A stretch of DNA of 46,009 bases from Laspinema palackyanum D2c (lineage in GTDB: Bacteria; Cyanobacteriota; Cyanobacteriia; Cyanobacteriales; Laspinemataceae): positions 1 through 46,009 of the forward strand of contig NZ_JAMXFD010000036.1 of assembly GCF_025370875.1 (NCBI RefSeq). Direction: 5' to 3'. This document shows positions 27,128 to 37,676 of this stretch, in pieces (positions within the stretch are counted from its first letter, which is position 1; each line of letters starts with the position of its first letter). The notes below the pieces were generated by a model. It did not search any database. It saw nothing but the letters and a program-made list of their open reading frames with translations, and had not been told where the DNA came from. Both the position numbers and the translations under genes were made by a program.

Positions 27128-27220
27128 GAAACGACAGCAAGTCGTTACTACGAACTAAGAGGGAACGACTGAAGTCGTTACTACGAACAATCCGGAACGA
27201 CTTCAGTTGTTACTATGAAC
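27128..27220. repeat. Three tandem copies of a small palindromic repeat
   Basis: Three units lie at 27128-27155, 27162-27188 and 27194-27220, a period of 32-34 nt. On the minus strand each reads as a head GTTCGTAGTA (third copy GTTCATAGTA) followed by a small stem-loop such as ACGAC-TTCA-GTCGT. The third unit overlaps the last codons and the stop of cobW. Related copies are at 36607-36669 and 45919-46008. This is a dispersed family of about 27 nt, not a CRISPR array. Confidence 0.8.
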
Positions 27221-28253
27221 TGGGGTCGATCGCCTCTAAAATATGCTCGCGGTTGAGGTTGCGTCCGATGAAGACTAGGCGGGTTTGGCGGGGTTCGGCT
27301 TCTTGCCAGGGGCGATCATAGAAGTGGTCGAAGCGTTTGCCGACGCCTTGTAATACTAATCGCATGGGTTTATTCTGGACTGAAACAAATCCTTTGATGC
27401 GATAAATTTCTAATTTTTCTACGAGGTTTTGGAGTTGACTAACTAAGGTCTTAGGGTCGAAGGTTTGGTTGAGGATAATGTTCACTGAATTGATATCATC
27501 ATCATGTTCATGGTCTTCCTCAGTGTCGTGGTGACTGGGACGGCTGTCGAGGTTGTCTTCGACGGCAGCATTAAATCCTAGGAGTAAGTCGGCGGTAATT
27601 TCACTGCTTTTGCAGGGAACAATTTTGACGTGAGGGGGCAGTTGCGATCGCAGCCAAGTGATCACTTTAGTTTGAGTTTCAGCATCGACTAAATCGACTT
27701 TGGTCAGTAATACTAAGTCAGCACAGGCGAGTTGATCCTCAAACAACTCTTCGATGGGGGTTTCATGATCTAAGCTGGGGTCAGCTTGTCGCGCTTGTTC
27801 TAAGGCGTCGAGATCCCCCACGAGAGTACCCGCTGCGACTGCCTCACAATCGACCAAGGTAACCACGCCATCGACGGTGGCCCCGGTGCGAATTTCCGGC
27901 CAACGAAAGGCTTGAATTAGGGGTTTGGGGAGGGCGAGTCCGGAGGTTTCGATTAACATACAATCGAGGCGATCGCGATGTTTGAGCAATTCCTGCATGG
28001 TGGGCAAAAATTCCTCTTGAACGGTACAACAGAGGCAACCGTTGGTCAGTTCAATAATATTGCTATCGGTAGCAGGAGATTCGTCACACACTTGACAGGA
28101 TTTGAGAAACTCGCCATCAATGCCAACTTCGCCAAATTCATTGACGAGGACGGCTATGCGTCGTCCTTGATTGTTTTGGAGGAGATGACGGATAGTGCTG
28201 GTTTTGCCAGCCCCGAGGAAACCCGTGATTACGGTAACAGGAATTTTATGCAT
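27213..28253 (-). CDS. cobW: CobW-family GTPase (metallochaperone)
   Basis: The 346-residue G3E GTPase has the P-loop GFLGAGKTS (residues 11-19), the metal-binding CxCC motif NGCLCC with Cys73, Cys75 and Cys76, the Walker B region IETSGLALP and the guanine-specificity motif TKVDL. A His/Asp-rich stretch (HHDTEEDHEHDDD) lies before the C-terminal CobW domain. Proteins of this group deliver metals such as Co to cobalamin biosynthesis or Zn to zinc enzymes; CobW is the cobalt one, and the NGCLCC context and length fit it. No cobalamin biosynthesis genes flank it, so the label rests on sequence. The stop codon lies within a small repeat copy. Confidence 0.82.
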   Translation of the reverse strand: MHKIPVTVITGFLGAGKTSTIRHLLQNNQGRRIAVLVNEFGEVGIDGEFLKSCQVCDESPATDSNIIELTNGCLCCTVQEEFLPTMQELLKHRDRLDCMLIETSGLALPKPLIQAFRWPEIRTGATVDGVVTLVDCEAVAAGTLVGDLDALEQARQADPSLDHETPIEELFEDQLACADLVLLTKVDLVDAETQTKVITWLRSQLPPHVKIVPCKSSEITADLLLGFNAAVEDNLDSRPSHHDTEEDHEHDDDINSVNIILNQTFDPKTLVSQLQNLVEKLEIYRIKGFVSVQNKPMRLVLQGVGKRFDHFYDRPWQEAEPRQTRLVFIGRNLNREHILEAIDPSS

Positions 28254-30366: not shown

Positions 30367-31043
30367 AATTTTAATTGATTGGGTAAGACTTAGTAATGTA
30401 GATTAACTCACAAAAAGTTCCCTGTCAAGAGATATAGTCGTCTTTTTTTTCAAAAAATAATAAGTTCTGTTAATCCAAAAAGTTTGTTGCTAAATTTTCT
30501 GAGGGGATGGTAAAATCTTTAACCCCTTCTCTAGGGCTGAGTGCAATGTAAGTTCACCGCACTGCTTATTAGCCGATTCCTTCCCTTTCTTAAGTAAAAT
30601 CGACTACACTTTTAAAAGTATTGTGCTTTTAAAGCCTGAAGTATTTGCCCTGTAAGGGTTATTGCTTTAAAATCCTAAAAAAAGTTTGGGGGACTCATAA
30701 AGAGTAAAGCCCTCTTTAACCTGTGGAATTTCGGTTAAATGGAAGATTGGATACTTTTGTGATCAACCGGGCCTAAATTAAAAACAGGAGTTACGCCCTG
30801 GATTGGCGACCCAGGCCCTGGGGGAGGCTTTACTCACCTCATTTCCTAACATTTTCTAAAATGCGCCAATTTCCGTCTTATTATAGGGTTCAGCTCTGTT
30901 CCTACTGCTGAAATGGGGGACTGTGGGCCTTACAACAGTAAGTTGTCCTCGTGAGGAATCGTAAAAACTTACCGTTGTAAGGACTGGGGGCTTAGGTGTC
31001 TCTAGTTAGTCTTTGAAACACGAGAGTAGGGAAAGAACGGGGA
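30367..31043. other. 677-nt intergenic region
   Basis: No gene is seen. It carries the large hairpin at 30928-30982 and AT-rich runs just upstream of the repeat protein gene. The promoter of that gene should lie in the first hundred or so bases above 30366; none could be pinned down. Confidence 0.5.
30928..30982. repeat. Long imperfect hairpin, 17-bp arms
   Basis: CCTTACAACAGTAAGTT (30928-30944) pairs with AACTTACCGTTGTAAGG (30966-30982) with one mismatch, around a 21-nt loop that itself contains TCCTCGTGAGGA. It lies 60 nt past the stop of hupE, so it may end that transcript, but it lacks a U tract and resembles a dispersed repeat. Confidence 0.65.
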
Positions 31044-31721
31044 TTAACCTACAAGTGAAGAGGCGAGAAATGCTGCGCCGATGCCACCGATCGCAAATCC
31101 AGCAAATCGCAGGGATAAGTTGGGGTCTTGATCCAACGCGGTGAGGGTTTTGCGGACGAAGCCGATCGCAGCGGAGGCGATCGCAATTTGAATGGCGGTA
31201 AATCCCATCAGGTAAGCGAGGAGAGGGGCGGTTTCTGCGCCGATGATGGCTTCACCGTAGGCATAGCCATGAAAGATGCCAGCGACGGCAGCGATCGCCG
31301 CGATAAGCTTTAAATTAGGCCGTTCTTTCATGGCGAGGAGGATTCCGACGGTGATCACGGAAGCGGCAATGATGATTTCTACCGCAGGAATATCTACACT
31401 GAGGAGGTGTATTCCGGTTCCTCCCATTGCCGCGATCGCAAAGGTGATGGGAATCGCGATGCCGTAGGGATGGAAGGCACAGAGTAAGGCGATCGCCACG
31501 ACAAAGGCGAAATGATCCAACCCGATCATCGGATGTGCGAATCCTGAGAGTAGTCCTTCCCAAACATTACTCGGGGTGGCAGAATTCATAGGGTGATGAG
31601 CGAATGCCGGTTCGATTCCCCAGAACAAGGCAATGGCAAGGGCAACGAGCATTACTCCCCCGGTTATTTTGGGGTGCCGGGGTAGAACAAATGGAAATCG
31701 GTTGAGGGTTGGCTTAAGCAT
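31044..31721 (-). CDS. hupE: HupE/UreJ-family metal permease, predicted cobalt/nickel transporter
   Basis: The 225-residue membrane protein has an N-terminal signal-like helix ending EPAFAHHP, then six hydrophobic helices. The family signature HPMIGLDH occurs near residue 62, with a second conserved segment around HGYAYGE. HupE proteins move cobalt or nickel across the cell envelope and in cyanobacteria are predicted B12-regulated cobalt transporters. The cobalamin riboswitch found about 370 nt upstream on the same strand fits the cobalt version. The putative leader to the ATG is long and includes a 7-bp hairpin at 31854-31870. The Crp/Fnr gene ends at 32422 and is separated by an intrinsic terminator, so hupE probably has its own transcript. 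Confidence 0.88.
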   Translation of the reverse strand: MLKPTLNRFPFVLPRHPKITGGVMLVALAIALFWGIEPAFAHHPMNSATPSNVWEGLLSGFAHPMIGLDHFAFVVAIALLCAFHPYGIAIPITFAIAAMGGTGIHLLSVDIPAVEIIIAASVITVGILLAMKERPNLKLIAAIAAVAGIFHGYAYGEAIIGAETAPLLAYLMGFTAIQIAIASAAIGFVRKTLTALDQDPNLSLRFAGFAIGGIGAAFLASSLVG

Positions 31722-31853
31722 GGGTTAGGTTAAAAAAATTGATTGGTTTAACATCTATAAGTGAGTCAGGTCAGGGGCATAAGTGCGGCTGAGACTCCGT
31801 TCCTCGGGAAAAGTGAGGATTCACCCCGGGCAATGGGGAGTAAAAATCAGGCA

Positions 31854-31870
31854 CTCGGAATCATTCCGAG
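31854..31870 (-). other. Short hairpin in the hupE leader
   Basis: CTCGGAA and TTCCGAG flank a three-base loop, a perfect 7-bp stem, in the RNA leader between the riboswitch and the start codon. No U tract follows. The downstream minus-strand sequence includes GGGGTGAATCC, which I could not assign to a known riboswitch. Confidence 0.4.
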
Positions 31871-32049
31871 ACCTGGATTTCCGGAAAATTGGCTAGAATG
31901 TGAGAACTCGGTCTAGTTTAGAGAACTCACAAAGTCAGCAAATTTTTCCCCTTGGCATGGGTGTGGAGTCAAAAGTACGATCGCGCTGCCGCACTGTTGC
32001 GCGCAAGGGCTACTATCGACAGAATAGAGTGTTCTAGTAAAGGAAAATC

Positions 32050-32108
32050 AATGCCCATCTGTACCTCGCAGATGAATGTAAGGGTGGACGATCGCGGCGG
32101 TGGGCATT
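32050..32108 (-). promoter_or_regulatory. Candidate expression platform of the cobalamin riboswitch
   Basis: AATGCCCA at 32050-32057 and TGGGCATT at 32101-32108 are a perfect 8-nt inverted pair. The second lies in the B12 box. On the transcript the downstream strand TGGGCATT can pair with the B12-box segment AATGCCCA, and this pairing would compete with the ligand-bound form. A short stem CATCTG/CAGATG (32056-32061 and 32069-32074) overlaps the same place and would exclude the pairing. There is no strong U tract, so the control may be through Rho or through translation; both are inference. Confidence 0.55.
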
Positions 32109-32240
32109 CTGACTTACCGACCCCAGAGGGCAAATAGAGATTTACCGGGAAGCTGGGATTGGGATCACAGTTGCGGGACAGTGCCGGATTGGGACCGGGC
32201 TTTCCCCCTTGCGTCTGATGGCTGGACCCCATCAGAACCG
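32080..32240 (-). promoter_or_regulatory. Cobalamin (B12) riboswitch
   Basis: Read on the minus strand the region matches the cobalamin aptamer core. AAGGGGGAAAGCCCGG (32210-32195), then TCCGG, then the hallmark TGTCCCGCAACTGTGA (32180-32165), correspond to the GGGAA/CCGG/CCCGCxACTGT parts of the consensus. The B12 box follows as AAGTCAGAATGCCCA (32115-32101). A hairpin lies at 32214-32237. Binding of a cobalamin should reduce expression of the downstream gene, hupE. The position is about 370 nt from the hupE start codon. Boundaries are approximate; the core elements are directly visible and the assignment follows the known RF00174 layout. Confidence 0.85.
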
Positions 32241-32347
32241 CCTGATAGGGGATATCTTACCCCATCGCCGACAGTTTACGACTGGGGAAATGAAGAGAAG
32301 CGGAAAAAGTTGCCCGGTGATCTCGGTTCCCGGGCGGTTCATCGGGC

Positions 32348-32377
32348 AAAAAAAGGGGCCAACGCTCGGTTAGCCCC
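32348..32377 (-). terminator. Intrinsic terminator of the Crp/Fnr gene
   Basis: On the minus strand GGGGCTAAC pairs with GTTGGCCCC (one G-U pair) around a five-base loop, followed at once by seven U residues (the A run at 32348-32354 of the plus strand). It lies about 45 nt beyond the stop codon. Confidence 0.9.
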
Positions 32378-32421
32378 TGGGGGTTCTATCAAGGTGCGAT
32401 CGCCACTGGGGGGGTGATTAG

Positions 32422-33000
32422 TTAAACCAGAGGCAACCCGCCGGATTCGTAGAGAAGAATAGACTGACGATGGGGACGGGCGATCGCCCCTTCATTTTCC
32501 AGGCGTTGGAGGAGGCGAGTCACCGTAACCCGGGAGATGCCGATCGCCTCAGCAATTTCTTGATGGGTCATCGGCAATTCTAGCAACAGTCCCTGTTCCA
32601 CCGGACGAGCAAATTTATCGCTTAACCAGACTAAAAACTTGAGCAAGCGGTCCTGGACTTGCTTGCAGTGAATAATCGTCAGGAGTTCCTCAGTTTTTCG
32701 GGTGTGGGTGCGAATAGCATCTAAGACTTGTTGCCACTGATGCCCGGGAATCATGCTAACTTCTACGGAGGTTAAACATTCTATTTGATAGCCGTTAATG
32801 CAACAGAGGGGTTCCCCCACCACATCTCCGGGCCCCCAATATCCGGAGGCGATGGTGGTCCCATCTTCCGTCCAGGCGATCGTCCGAACCACTCCGCGAT
32901 CAATTTTCCACAGGATGTCTTGCCACATCGGAATCGAGTCTTTGCGGCTGAATGTTCGCCGCAGGGTGGAGGGGACAGAAGCTAAAGTTGCAATGGTCAT
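32422..33000 (-). CDS. Crp/Fnr-family transcriptional regulator
   Basis: The 192-residue protein has a shortened cyclic-nucleotide-binding-like beta domain in its first 110 residues (the segment WQDILWKIDRGVVRTIAW and SGYWGPGDVVGEPLCCI), a linker helix, and a C-terminal winged helix. The recognition helix is clear in THQEIAEAIGISRVTVTRLL, a typical Crp/Fnr motif. It does not have the usual cAMP-binding signature and no Fe-S cysteine set, so the effector is unclear. The frame opens at a TTG (33006), but the ATG at 33000 is the normal start. Situated beside the B12-controlled hupE gene but transcribed separately through a terminator. The target genes are unknown. Confidence 0.87.
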   Translation of the reverse strand: MTIATLASVPSTLRRTFSRKDSIPMWQDILWKIDRGVVRTIAWTEDGTTIASGYWGPGDVVGEPLCCINGYQIECLTSVEVSMIPGHQWQQVLDAIRTHTRKTEELLTIIHCKQVQDRLLKFLVWLSDKFARPVEQGLLLELPMTHQEIAEAIGISRVTVTRLLQRLENEGAIARPHRQSILLYESGGLPLV

Positions 33001-33048
33001 AAACAAATAGTTTTGAGATTATTATGGTTAGTTTTGAAAGGGGATAAG

Positions 33049-33106
33049 AAAAGAGGCGACTGCCCCAAACCTGCATTGGGTAAATGCTAGGGCAGTCGCC
33101 TCTTTT
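33049..33106. terminator. Bidirectional intrinsic terminator
   Basis: AAAAGAGGCGACTGCCC (33049-33065) and GGGCAGTCGCCTCTTTT (33090-33106) are perfect 17-bp inverted arms with 24 nt between them. On the minus strand the stem is followed by UUUU, and on the plus strand by UUUUUU. It ends transcription of the small minus-strand gene to the right (stop at 33122) and could act in both directions. Confidence 0.9.
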
Positions 33107-33121
33107 TTCGGGTTGGGAATT

Positions 33122-33376
33122 TTATTCAGCCTCATCGGACTCAGTGCCAATTCTTAATTGTTTCTTTGTCCGCTTAAGCTGTTTCCAAAGTCTCTTAATT
33201 TGTTTGTAAGCGTCCTCTGGCGGTAATTTCCCCCCGGTTTCTAAACAACTAATTACGCTCACGCGCTGGGCAAACTCCTGCAAGTTGGCATTAAACACCA
33301 TATTTTCTGGATGGTCTGGTGTAATTTTGCCGTAGTAACGACTGCGAGGAGATATAAAATCAAATTTGTCATGCAT
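33122..33376 (-). CDS. Small conserved cyanobacterial protein (DUF7219-like)
   Basis: The 84-residue protein begins MHDKFDFISPRSRYYGKITP and contains LVFNANLQEFAQRVS-like and CLETGGKLPPEDAYKQIKRLWKQLKRTKKQL patterns that I recognise as a cyanobacterial family of about 80 residues. It is soluble, with a helical, basic C-terminal half and an acidic tail (GTESDEAE). The frame is open up to 33421, but the homologous part begins at the Met at 33376, so I use that. Function unknown. It ends directly before a strong terminator. Confidence 0.7.
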   Translation of the reverse strand: MHDKFDFISPRSRYYGKITPDHPENMVFNANLQEFAQRVSVISCLETGGKLPPEDAYKQIKRLWKQLKRTKKQLRIGTESDEAE

Positions 33377-34611: not shown

Positions 34612-35610
34612 CTAATTCTCAGCCATCACAAACGGGGTATAGGTCCCGCCCAAGGCTTCTACCACCGCCCGGGTATTCGAGACCATCATCTTAATATAAG
34701 AATCGGACTCGCTACCGGGGGTACCAATGGAGTCGGAATACAGTTCCTGCTCGGCTAATTTAACTCCGGCCTCCGCTGCTACAGTACGGATAAGTTGGGA
34801 ATTAATGGTGGTTTCCGCAAAAATGGCCGGAACCTGGGTTCGTTTAATCTCCTCTACCAACTGCGTCACGGTTTGGGCGCTGGGTTGTTCCTCGGTACTG
34901 ATGCCGATTAACGTGCCGATAATCTCTAACCCATAGCCTTGGGCGTAGTATTGGAAGGCATCATGAGTGGTGACTAAGCGGCGGTTTTCCGGGGGAATTG
35001 TGGCAATTTGCCCTTGAATCCAGCGGTGGAGTTCTTCCAAGGTGGCGGTATAGTTGGCGGCATTTTCCCCGATCGCAGCGGCATTTTCTGGGGAGAGTTC
35101 GCTTAAGGCATCCCGAATCCCGTTAACCATTGCGATCGCATTCATGACATCCCCCCACACATGAGGATCCGGGGTCGTCCCTGCCTGCTTCTCCATCAGC
35201 AAAGGGAGTACGACTTCCCCCACGGCCACTTTTCGAGCATTCACACCCGCAGCATTCATTAAATTAATGAGTCCCGGTTCTAGGTTATAGCCGTTATAAA
35301 GAATCAAATCTGCATTCTCCAAGGCAATGGAGTCAGCGGGAACGGGTTCATAAATATGGGGATCGACTCCCGGGGTCAAAATACTGGTGAGTTGAATCTC
35401 TTCGGTGGCAATGGACTCGGCTAAGTCGGCAATAATGGTACTGGTAGAGACCACTTGCGGCTGACTCCCCGAACTCTCCCCCGCCTGATTCACTTCAGGG
35501 TTAGTACAGCTACTCAAGCAGAACCCCAAAATCAGTCCGGTGGCTAATTTCCAGAGGGAGTGTTTTCCCTGATAGTCTGCGATCGCTCTCCTGTGGATAG
35601 ATATTTTCAT
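34612..35610 (-). CDS. Zn/Mn ABC transporter substrate-binding lipoprotein (TroA/ZnuA type)
   Basis: The 332-residue protein starts with a lipoprotein signal ending CLSSC. The cluster A-I fold is shown by TSTIIADLAESIA, TPGVDPHIYEP, LEPGL, PDPHVW, THDAF and AETTINSQL. Metal ligands expected in this family are His85, His150, His216 and Asp293 (YSDSIGTPG). The third ligand is His, in THDAFQYY, as in TroA and ZnuA; manganese-specific MntC/PsaA have Glu there. The long His-rich loop of typical ZnuA is missing. It captures Zn or Mn in the periplasm. It is divergent from its ATPase gene, which starts 77 nt away. Confidence 0.88.
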   Translation of the reverse strand: MKISIHRRAIADYQGKHSLWKLATGLILGFCLSSCTNPEVNQAGESSGSQPQVVSTSTIIADLAESIATEEIQLTSILTPGVDPHIYEPVPADSIALENADLILYNGYNLEPGLINLMNAAGVNARKVAVGEVVLPLLMEKQAGTTPDPHVWGDVMNAIAMVNGIRDALSELSPENAAAIGENAANYTATLEELHRWIQGQIATIPPENRRLVTTHDAFQYYAQGYGLEIIGTLIGISTEEQPSAQTVTQLVEEIKRTQVPAIFAETTINSQLIRTVAAEAGVKLAEQELYSDSIGTPGSESDSYIKMMVSNTRAVVEALGGTYTPFVMAEN

Positions 35611-35687
35611 TTTTGTTTCATATTTGATTCACAATGGGCTCATATTTACACTATCCTGGAATTAAAAGCTAAATTTTAGAAACCGTT
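35611..35687. promoter_or_regulatory. Divergent promoter of the Zn/Mn transporter with direct repeat
   Basis: This 77-nt spacer separates the substrate-binding protein gene (leftward) and the ATPase gene (rightward), so both transcripts must begin here. TCATATTT occurs twice as a direct repeat at 35618-35625 and 35640-35647, 22 bp apart, about two helical turns, which fits a regulator binding to one face of DNA. I cannot say which metalloregulator (Zur, MntR or ManR) would use it. Confidence 0.45.
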
Positions 35688-36485
35688 ATGAAAAGATCTA
35701 ACCCGTTCAACCCGGACAGTTCCTGGAAAAATCAGCCGCCAACTTCGGCAGATCAAGCCATCTGTGTCAGTCATCTGGGGGTGAATTATCGCCAGGTCCA
35801 GGCCCTCACCGATGTCAACGCCGTGATTCGCCGGGGACGCCTCACGGGGATTATTGGACCCAATGGTGCCGGGAAAAGCACCTTAATCAAAGCGATGTTA
35901 GGATTAACCCCCACCCTCAGCGGTAGGGTGGTTTATGAAGGGAAACCCCTGATGGAACAACGCGATCGCATCGCCTACGTTCCCCAGCGATCGCAAATTG
36001 ACTGGACCTATCCTGCCACGGTTTGGGATGTGGTGATGATGGGACGGGCCACAAAAACCGGCTGGTTTAGACGGTATAGTACGGTCAGCCGTCAAATTGC
36101 CTCCGATGCGATCGCCCGAGTCGGCATGAGTGACTACCGCAACCGCAAAATTGGCGATTTATCCGGGGGACAACAGCAGCGCGTCTTTTTAGCGCGATCG
36201 CTGGCGCAACAAGCGGAGATATTCTGTTTCGATGAGCCCTTTGTCGGCATCGACCAAAAAACCGAAGCGGTCCTGTTTGATATTTTTCACGAACTCGCCG
36301 CAGCGGGAAATATTGTGGTGGTGGTGAATCACGACCTCGGGGAATCGATTACCCATTTTGATGATTTAATTCTATTAAATCGGGAATTAATTGCCTGTGG
36401 TGGCCGACAACAAGTCCTGCGATCGGACAATATGTATCGCGCCTATCAAGGACAGGTACAGTTTTTTAGCGATCGGGCTGCTTAA
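35688..36485 (+). CDS. Zn/Mn ABC transporter ATP-binding protein
   Basis: The 265-residue ATPase shows Walker A GPNGAGKST (57-65), Q-loop region YVPQRSQIDWTYP, signature LSGGQ (158-162), Walker B IFCFDEP, and the switch histidine His215 in VVNHDLGES. The YPATVWDVVMMGR segment is typical of metal-uptake ABC ATPases (ZnuC/MntA type). It drives metal import with the permease encoded 300 nt downstream and the divergent substrate-binding lipoprotein. The first 25 residues are hydrophilic and precede the conserved core. Confidence 0.93.
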   Translation: MKRSNPFNPDSSWKNQPPTSADQAICVSHLGVNYRQVQALTDVNAVIRRGRLTGIIGPNGAGKSTLIKAMLGLTPTLSGRVVYEGKPLMEQRDRIAYVPQRSQIDWTYPATVWDVVMMGRATKTGWFRRYSTVSRQIASDAIARVGMSDYRNRKIGDLSGGQQQRVFLARSLAQQAEIFCFDEPFVGIDQKTEAVLFDIFHELAAAGNIVVVVNHDLGESITHFDDLILLNRELIACGGRQQVLRSDNMYRAYQGQVQFFSDRAA

Positions 36486-36521
36486 AGAACCTAACCCCCC
36501 GGCCCTTATAAGAGTAAGTTT

Positions 36522-36573
36522 GTACCTTTCCGGTCCCCTCCCCTGTGTATTGGGAAGGGGACCGGAGGTGTAC
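36522..36573. terminator. Hairpin between transporter ATPase and permease genes
   Basis: The core is TCCGGTCCCCT (36529-36539) and AGGGGACCGGA (36556-36566), a perfect 11-bp stem with a 16-nt loop, and outer partial pairing. It lies 36 nt past the ATPase stop. No U tract follows, so termination is possible but not certain. Confidence 0.45.
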
Positions 36574-36602
36574 TTAAGGGAAATCAAAAAAATAACTCAT
36601 CC

Positions 36603-36673
36603 AAATGTTCGTAGTAACCCCTTCAGGGGTTTCTTTTAAAGATGACTCGGTGAAGGAGTCACTACGAACATTT
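36603..36673. repeat. Inverted pair of the small palindromic repeat
   Basis: AAATGTTCGTAGT (36603-36615) and ACTACGAACATTT (36661-36673) are perfect 13-bp arms. Each arm adds its own small stem: ACCCC-TTCA-GGGGT in the left one and TGACTC/GAGTCA in the right one. The head sequence GTTCGTAGT is the same as in the array at 27128-27220 but the stem letters differ while pairing is kept. Confidence 0.8.
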
Positions 36674-36788
36674 TAGGGGTTTTATTTTTTTGAGTTCCCT
36701 TAGCGTAAAAAACATCCTCTTGTAAAGGCTGGGGGGAGAGGTCTATTTTTCCCTGTACTCCTCTACATTCTGTATAAATTCCCCTGCC

Positions 36789-37676
36789 ATGTTAGACGGA
36801 TTAATTGAACCCCTCCAATATAGTTTTATGCAACGATCGCTGATTGTGGCGATTTTAGTGGGCTTGATTTGTGCCGTGGTTGGCAGTTATTTAATGGTGC
36901 AGCGTCTGGCTTTATTAGGAGATGCGATCGGGCATTCGGTCCTTCCTGGATTGGCAGTTGCTTATGGGATTGGGGCGAATATTTTTGTGGGGGCCTTTAT
37001 TGCCGGGGTCCTCAGTACCGTGGTGATTGCCTGGATTAGAACGCGATCGCCCATTAAAGAAGATGCCGCAATGGGAATCGTTTTATCCTCCTTTTTTGCC
37101 CTAGGCATCACCTTAATTACCCTGATTCAAAAAGACGAAAAAATTGACCTGAATCATTTTTTATTCGGCAACATTCTCGCCGTTACCTCAGAAGATGTAA
37201 AAACCACCGCCCTGATTGCCTTTTTAACCCTTGCGGTGGTTTTTTTACTGTATAAAGAACTGTTGTTTTACACCTTTGACCCCTTGGGTGCTCAAGCCGC
37301 AGGACTTCCGGTAAATTTGCTCAATTTTGGGTTAATGGTTTTGATTGCCCTAACGGTCGTTGCTAGTATGAAAGCGGTGGGGGTAGTGCTGGTTTTGTCC
37401 CTGCTGATTGCCCCCGGGGCTACGGCTTATTTATTAGTGCCTCGTCTCCATCAGGTGATGATTGTCGGGGCGTTGATTGGCATTGTTTCCAGTGTCACAG
37501 GAATGTATTTGAGTTTTTATCAAAACATCCCATCAGGTCCCGCGATTGTGTTAGTAGTATCAGGGTTTTTCCTGTTAGCGTTGCTATTGAGTCCGAGTCA
37601 TGGAATTCTGACTCATCCTCGGGCAAAAGGGGAGACTTCTGTATTTTGGCAGGAAATCAAAGGGTTATTTCGCTAG
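36789..37676 (+). CDS. Zn/Mn ABC transporter permease
   Basis: The 295-residue integral membrane protein has about eight to nine hydrophobic helices. It begins with GLIEPLQYSFMQRSLIVAILVG and carries the conserved block LLGDAIGHSVLPGLAVAYGIG and the loop MKAVGVVLVLSLLIAPGATAYLL, both diagnostic for the ABC-3 (ZnuB/MntB) permease family. It forms the membrane path for metal ions taken up with the ATPase and lipoprotein next to it. The gene stands 302 nt behind the ATPase, with hairpins and repeats between them. It converges with the TPR protein gene, with 22 nt between stops. Confidence 0.93.
   Translation: MLDGLIEPLQYSFMQRSLIVAILVGLICAVVGSYLMVQRLALLGDAIGHSVLPGLAVAYGIGANIFVGAFIAGVLSTVVIAWIRTRSPIKEDAAMGIVLSSFFALGITLITLIQKDEKIDLNHFLFGNILAVTSEDVKTTALIAFLTLAVVFLLYKELLFYTFDPLGAQAAGLPVNLLNFGLMVLIALTVVASMKAVGVVLVLSLLIAPGATAYLLVPRLHQVMIVGALIGIVSSVTGMYLSFYQNIPSGPAIVLVVSGFFLLALLLSPSHGILTHPRAKGETSVFWQEIKGLFR

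Follow-up and report, generated by a model that had tools for sequence, protein, structure and literature searches.

The stretch of DNA analysed here, called the window throughout, comprises 46,009 nucleotides of Laspinema palackyanum D2c (contig NZ_JAMXFD010000036.1). On its minus strand lies hupE, which encodes a HupE/UreJ-family permease (PF04955, 129.6 bits, E 1.2e-37) that is the only match to this model in the genome and has, judged by eye, a signal-like N-terminus. The nearest HupE proteins, at 84-92% identity, are those of three Laspinema genomes, Oscillatoria sp. HE19RPO and Phormidium pseudopriestleyi. The surroundings of hupE are a metal-homeostasis neighbourhood, with a CobW-family GTPase downstream (27213-28253; TIGR02475, 495.8 bits) and a divergent metal ABC transporter (ZnuA/ABC/ABC-3; 34612-37676) upstream. 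A Crp/Fnr-type regulator (32422-33006), whose nearest NCBIfam model is PtrA at a score below the cut-off, stands immediately upstream of a riboswitch aptamer, and a terminator-like hairpin (32378-32354) lies between the two. The features from this aptamer to hupE, some of which were compared across a group of seven genomes (the window together with loci L003-L007 and L116), are as follows.

32082 to 32257, minus strand: cobalamin riboswitch aptamer (RF00174), matched by cmscan over the full model (1-189)
32175 to 32180, minus strand: loop L5 of the aptamer, UGUCCC, with GUCC (32179-32176) as the proposed kissing partner of GG(U)AC
32101 to 32115, minus strand: B12 box, AAGTCAGAATGCCCA, identical in all seven genomes of the group
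32054 to 32076, minus strand: P13-type hairpin, TTCATCTG-CGAGGTA-CAGATGGG (CATCTG-CGAGGTA-CAGATG), directly after the aptamer
32050 to 32057, minus strand: segment TGGGCATT, earlier proposed as an anti-B12 box, equal to the UG of the leader-ORF start codon plus codons 2-3
31969 to 32058, minus strand: 29-codon leader ORF, MGIDFPLLEHSILSIVALARNSAAARSYF, whose reading frame and stop codon persist in the seven genomes examined
31899 to 31931, minus strand: hairpin TGTGAG...CTCACA between leader ORF and hupE, predicted in all seven genomes
31841 to 31875, minus strand: terminator-like hairpin T2, CAGGTCTCGGAATGATTCCGAGTGCCTG followed by ATTTTT, -16.8 kcal/mol in the window
31044 to 31721, minus strand: hupE, with its own start

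A preliminary description of this DNA had placed a cobalamin riboswitch upstream of hupE, and both the regulator and the gene are borne out. A covariance-model search gave a significant, full-length RF00174 match at 32257-32082 on the minus strand (41.2 bits, where the gathering score is 31.5; E 4.1e-7), and hupE matches PF04955. The aptamer core TGTCCCGCAACTGTGA (32180-32165) and the B12 box (32115-32101) were also found on the minus strand, as had been described. Genome-wide (7.03 Mb), this aptamer is the sole RF00174 match above the gathering score. A second, sub-threshold cobalamin riboswitch of the same genome (L002, G000:C16:112005-112195, 30.1 bits) lies ahead of a gene that looks cobG-like by eye, the name coming from sequence reading only. 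When all 80 hupE loci were scanned, RF00174 was found upstream of the hupE match in 52; some of the other 28 are truncated at contig ends. At one locus, in Pseudanabaena CAN_BIN31 (L019, 1505-1609), the aptamer ahead of hupE is of the AdoCbl-II type (RF01689, 44.3 bits) and not RF00174, and a Prochloraceae MAG (L021, 2061-2395) has two RF00174 aptamers of 41.9 and 58.3 bits in tandem, followed by a DUF1636-like ORF and hupE.

The P13-type hairpin carries a Shine-Dalgarno (SD) sequence, GAGG, in its loop (32067-32064) and an AUG in its 3' arm (32058-32056), with the SD five bases upstream of the start codon. Both the SD and the start of a short ORF therefore lie inside one hairpin, for which control by ligand is predicted. 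Positions 32075-32058 contain zero variable columns among the seven genomes. Other hupE loci show the same arrangement: ATCTG-CGAGGTA-C[AG]GAT recurs behind the aptamer, an ATG either falling within the 3' arm or following it closely, and in many of them hupE itself starts, in frame, at that ATG. Of 388 genomes of the class, 167 contain an exact copy of the 17-mer ATCTGCGAGGTACRGAT; the reversed-pattern control gave 0 among the matches listed. A simple terminator scan flagged the P13 hairpin (32076-32054) as terminator-like, in a run that returned 5 sites against 2.7 expected.

Pairing of GUCC in L5 with GG(U)AC in the hairpin loop is possible, and other loci show covarying variants with some exceptions, the evidence being the sequences themselves. 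Parsing gave no L5 for 39 loci and a wrong one for about 7. The commonest combination of L5 and loop, TGTCCC with GAGGTAC, occurs in 94 loci. TGTACC is combined with GAGTTAC in 13 loci, the exception being L229, which has TGTACC and keeps GAGG; TGTAAC occurs with GAGTTAC in two loci, and TGACCC with GAGGTTC in two, L220 being exceptional in combining TGACCC with GAGGTAC. Further exceptions are L111 and L143, in which GAGGTTC is found together with TGTCCC, and variants of the bulged base are seen in L079 and in loci with GAGGCAC. This apparent covariation agrees with the L5-L13 kissing loop known from class-I B12 riboswitches, and the expression platform supported by comparison is the SD/AUG hairpin at 32076-32054 together with the putative L5-L13 contact.

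The ORF that begins at the hairpin AUG (32058-32056) and ends at 31969, 247 nt before hupE, is under purifying selection. Over all pairs of the seven genomes, its pN/pS is 0.30, against 1.02 and 1.46 in the other frames, and only 2 of 500 column shuffles gave a value as low. Variable columns make up 16% of the aptamer, 0% of the hairpin and 19% of the ORF; further on, their share is 44% between ORF and T2, 47% within T2 and 72% between T2 and hupE. The conserved unit thus consists of aptamer, hairpin and ORF. The leader peptide bears no resemblance by eye to the N-terminus of HupE that would mark it as a remnant of a former hupE start. A phage collection searched with the hairpin and ORF gave zero matches, and a genome of the same genus (G006, 87% complete) had no match to the leader stretch and no RF00174 match.

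The arrangement was followed across cyanobacteria in two samples. The first comprised 190 RF00174 loci, namely the 52 hupE loci, the window and 137 loci from relatives, the last drawn from among the RF00174 matches listed (further matches existed). Hairpins were sought with a GCGAG pattern and a stem of at least three pairs, a procedure that mis-picked at least L047, whose true hairpin is among those seen on inspection of the hupE loci, and probably L208 and L213. Nine loci had no such hairpin; in the 181 that did, a start codon follows in 174 and is absent in 7. It opens an ORF of at least 100 codons (e.g., hupE or cbiM), here termed direct, in 74 loci and a shorter ORF in 100. Nine of the shorter ORFs were dropped: seven by sequence pattern and L216 by eye, which encode a conserved protein of ~61 aa that we take to be CbtB, and L226, which is cut at a contig end. 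One ~61-aa protein that was scanned, from L225, gave zero Pfam matches. The remaining 91 are the leader loci, 87 of them distinct by their first 12 residues.

Leader ORFs are longer than expected. For the 87 distinct ones, the median length is 29 codons, compared with 7 in frame +2 and 13 after mononucleotide shuffling (Mann-Whitney p 7e-17); frame +1 makes a biased comparison, because ATG followed by A gives TGA. Clustering at 85% identity leaves 62 clusters, again with a median of 29 codons, and 53 of the 62 have 15-45 codons, compared with 35% of shuffles (p 2e-13). The shuffles used for leader length keep base composition only; those used for B12-box complements, terminators and structure excess keep dinucleotides. 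Relatedness among loci was handled only through the 85% clustering, and near-identical pairs are present (L121/L139, L125/L205, L050/L278 and L273/L305). In 23 of the 87 loci there is no ATG at offset 11, and the start codon lies at offset 10-18 (17 ATG, 4 GTG and 2 TTG), a set selected for having a start codon, with 7 further hairpin loci having none; ATG at other offsets occurs at a mean of 0.7 per offset in the 87 loci.

The second sample consisted of 60 loci from among the matches listed for the 17-mer, hand-picked to spread over genera and other orders. All 60 have the start codon; five without a B12 box and GCAA upstream were left out of the counts. The other 55 divide into 18 direct, 3 CbtB-like and 34 leader loci. 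Leader ORFs have a median of 27 codons in this sample, where frame +2 gives 12 and shuffles give 14, and 29 of the 34 lie within 15-45 codons compared with 40% of shuffles (p 2e-7). The sample is not independent, as 14 of its 34 leader loci cluster with leaders of the first; clustered by itself, it yields 22 clusters with a median of 31 codons, 18 of them within 15-45 (p 4e-5). Among ORFs long enough, Phe stands at codon 7 in 31 of 86 in the first sample and 17 of 33 in the second, or, after clustering, in 21 of 61 and 7 of 21.

The genes behind leader ORFs include metE, cbiM, DUF1636, a TonB receptor, a fatty-acid desaturase, an Fe/Mn superoxide dismutase and others; a Pfam scan of ten proteins gave a match for eight, one of these being a directly started CbiX. 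A 154-aa protein (MRPQDSTWQGCFGYWQ...; L306, 765-1226, and relatives) also recurs behind B12-gated leader ORFs and has no Pfam match. The distance from leader to next ORF ranges from overlapping to 778 nt, with a median of 185, under a mechanical rule that takes the first ORF of at least 90 codons and is spurious in a few loci, e.g., L006, L007 and L067. Five other leader groups, when pooled, have a pN/pS of 0.35 in frame against 0.68 and 0.98 in the other frames. Taken singly, the metE group with an 18-aa leader has 0.65 in frame against 0.56 in +1, the second TonB group (TonB2) 0.27 against 0.10 in +1, and the cbiM group 0.72 against 0.29 in +2. Coding selection is thus clear for only part of these five groups, another frame being as low or lower in three of them.

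The two arrangements are interspersed among HupE proteins. In a maximum-likelihood tree of 90 distinct HupE proteins from loci with hairpin and start codon (30 leader, 60 direct), at least 11 label changes are needed; bootstrap trees need 9-12, and the well-supported branches alone force 5. Support is uneven, with 32 of 87 inner branches open and a bootstrap that has not converged. From this comparison, the direct and leader arrangements appear to have taken each other's place several times over with the switch retained, an argument that hupE is still served by the leader form. The long leader at this locus, previously called unusual, is so in part: a short ORF stands ahead of the gene for 30 of the 90 proteins.

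We favour, as probable, a mechanism in which the switch blocks translation initiation, its direct target here being the leader ORF, and in which hupE is coupled to that ORF on one transcript. The element would be a class-I (RF00174) cobalamin riboswitch acting on translation initiation. With a corrinoid bound, L5 of the aptamer would kiss the loop of the adjacent hairpin, locking it and hiding both the SD GAGG and the AUG; without ligand, the hairpin would open, and ribosomes would initiate at its AUG. Here and in near relatives, the ribosomes would read the 29-codon leader ORF and terminate 247 nt short of hupE, a gene that most likely lies on the same transcript. Output of hupE would then follow leader translation by way of mRNA stability, partial termination at T2 or some other link between translation and transcription. 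The leader stop does not overlap the hupE start, and reinitiation is unlikely across 247 nt. Polarity exerted by Rho is also unlikely, because Rho was not found in this genome, where the better of two TIGR00767 matches reached 24 bits against a cut-off of 509.45.

The region between leader ORF and hupE was searched for other elements. The hairpin at 31899-31931 was rejected as a conserved RNA element, since its covariation is not above that of shuffles (158 of 500 as high), and an Rfam search of 31700-32100 with E up to 5 returned a single, unrelated match of 16 bits. In Oscillatoria HE19RPO (L006), ~120 extra bases lie between T2 and hupE (at and around 2837-2860); these bases include a CRISPR-DR28-like match (36.6 bits) and a palindrome rich in G and C, and the leader of L122 has a similar one. 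On a wider scale, the stretch 20-100 nt past the leader stops is more structured than shuffles in 110 leader loci (mean z -1.08, s.e. 0.17), other windows giving mean z of -0.34 to -0.63, an excess that might reflect a downstream element. By eye, the regions downstream of the stops shared no motif, and an Rfam scan of 20 such leader loci returned cobalamin aptamers only. For one leader-peptide group, a hairpin spanning the leader stop seemed promising by eye but was set aside, as RNAalifold gave only -4.18 kcal/mol over nine sequences. Six loci (L286, L308, L311, L295, L197 and L316) share a conserved structured stretch between leader ORF and main gene, with a GGCTACCTGAGTAAAGGTGGC hairpin and later a GGGCTGTTTCC...GGAGACAGC hairpin, U-rich behind in some members. 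Their leader ORF is 18 aa long, of the type MMKTSxFCDWLFVGILRL (28 aa in L316), and the main gene is metE in several; the stretch has no Rfam match besides cobalamin.

The main rival holds that the riboswitch controls only a 29-residue microprotein, that T2 ends the transcript and that hupE has its own promoter, uncoupled from B12. Conservation of the leader ORF as a protein in the seven genomes is in keeping with this, as is the presence of T2 with its U-tract in most of them. Moreover, hupE may have its own promoter, because the sequence that separates it from the leader is fast-diverging (44-72% variable columns) and able to accommodate a terminator; the additional sequence in L006 falls in the same region. 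However, T2 is weaker in L003 (-8.6 kcal/mol), is not recognisable in L116 and was not flagged by the simple terminator scan. When 31000-33200 was scanned for a sigma-70 consensus by a simple method, the sole promoter-like site lay on the plus strand, leaving hupE with none. In relatives, hupE is driven directly by this same switch, the two forms interchanging, and genes related to B12 or cobalt follow leader ORFs in many loci. On balance, an uncoupled hupE seems unlikely, though it is the alternative to be taken most seriously.

Less likely still is attenuation controlled by translation, in which ribosomes on the leader would prevent a terminator, at the leader end or at T2, from forming and sequestration of the SD would allow it. 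In a lenient, uncontrolled scan, a hairpin followed by UUUU overlaps the leader end in five of the seven genomes; against 12 shuffles, it beats all in L004 but fails to do so in L006, L007 and L116. Pairing of T2, present in most of the seven genomes, is predicted to be the same with or without a simulated ribosome at the leader stop (probabilities within 0.04 in six of the seven), so that no ribosome-dependent refolding is expected. Among the 91 leader loci, terminator candidates at or below -10 kcal/mol occur in 22 against 11.4 expected from dinucleotide shuffles, an enrichment that speaks for attenuation together with the excess structure past the leader stops and the large conserved structure of the metE group, which ends in a hairpin that is followed by U-rich sequence in some members. 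On the other side, 55 of the 91 loci lack any candidate at or below -8 kcal/mol. Intrinsic terminators were rejected as the general means of coupling, being only about twofold over shuffles, with T2 not retained throughout the group of seven.

The preliminary description had further proposed that the 8-mer TGGGCATT (32057-32050) pairs with the B12 box when the riboswitch is ligand-free. The complementarity, to AATGCCCA in the box, exists and is exact, and it is kept in six of the seven group genomes; in L004, the segment is changed to TGGGCTTT (GGGCTTT), which breaks the complement, and the B12 box is unaltered. It does not clearly exceed chance, as 2000 dinucleotide shuffles of the 360 nt that follow the box yield a complement of at least 8 nt in 5.4% of cases, nor is it a conserved feature of such leaders: outside the group, a complement of at least 8 occurs in 1 of 183 loci (0.5%), against 2.6% in shuffles. 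With the break in L004, these counts make the segment a weak observation, and its conservation within the group appears to have a different cause, namely that it comprises codons 1-3 of a conserved ORF. An anti-B12-box switch is accordingly rejected as scarcely credible on grounds of chance level, conservation, coding content and polarity, the last because the AUG would be hidden in the ligand-free state, which is wrong for an OFF switch.

Parallels to the favoured mechanism, a riboswitch-gated leader ORF coupled to hupE, come from several known systems, as far as the available text of each source describes them. The HupE family includes members predicted to be cobalt-specific (PMC2667541), and the cyanobacterial HupE cobalt transporter has been predicted to be under B12-riboswitch control (PMC4284471). 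The latter system has the same pairing of gene and regulator; the part of that report available to us does not mention a leader ORF. Class-I cobalamin riboswitches share the aptamer layout, the P13 after the aptamer and the L5-L13 kissing, but their P13 precedes the start codon of the main gene, whereas here it is that of the leader ORF (PMC9600662). Gating of a like kind is known from Mycobacterium tuberculosis ppe2, where the hairpin of a B12 riboswitch carries the SD of the uORF uPPE2 (PMC11260477). There, too, the SD of a short uORF lies in the L13-bearing hairpin, and the uORF is the first target. However, that uORF and the main start overlap (AUGA), with PPE2 made mainly by termination-reinitiation, whereas 247 nt separate the two ORFs here; the ppe2 element is, moreover, a proposed class IIb variant, as opposed to RF00174 with a near-invariant cyanobacterial hairpin (PMC11260477). 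In Sinorhizobium meliloti metA, the SD is sequestered within a SAM-II switch and a terminator lies between AUG1 and the AUG2 that is used (PMC9373788). That system differs in its ligand class and in that AUG2 is in frame, with translation starting 74 nt downstream; a conserved leader peptide is not mentioned in the accessible portion of the paper (PMC9373788).

In the open-access literature searched, no report was found of leader ORFs gated by cyanobacterial B12 riboswitches, which does not establish their absence from print. B12-riboswitch control of HupE and, in M. tuberculosis, a riboswitch-gated uORF are known; what appears to be new is a probable gate placed on a conserved leader ORF and recurring across cyanobacteria. 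A much broader reading can be offered only tentatively, as possible but on the whole doubtful: about half of cyanobacterial RF00174 riboswitches might regulate distant genes, such as hupE, cbiM, metE, DUF1636 and TonB receptors, by gating a leader ORF of ~30 codons, with leader translation as the signal, relayed over up to hundreds of nucleotides by a previously undescribed, Rho-independent coupling.

For annotation and reporter design, treating such leaders as plain 5' UTRs would miss the short ORF that is the probable first target of the switch. The phylum-wide 17-nt hairpin offers a marker both for the true starts of B12-controlled genes and for unannotated small ORFs. If leader translation does carry the signal, these cyanobacteria would need another link from leader to distant gene, no Rho having been found in this genome.
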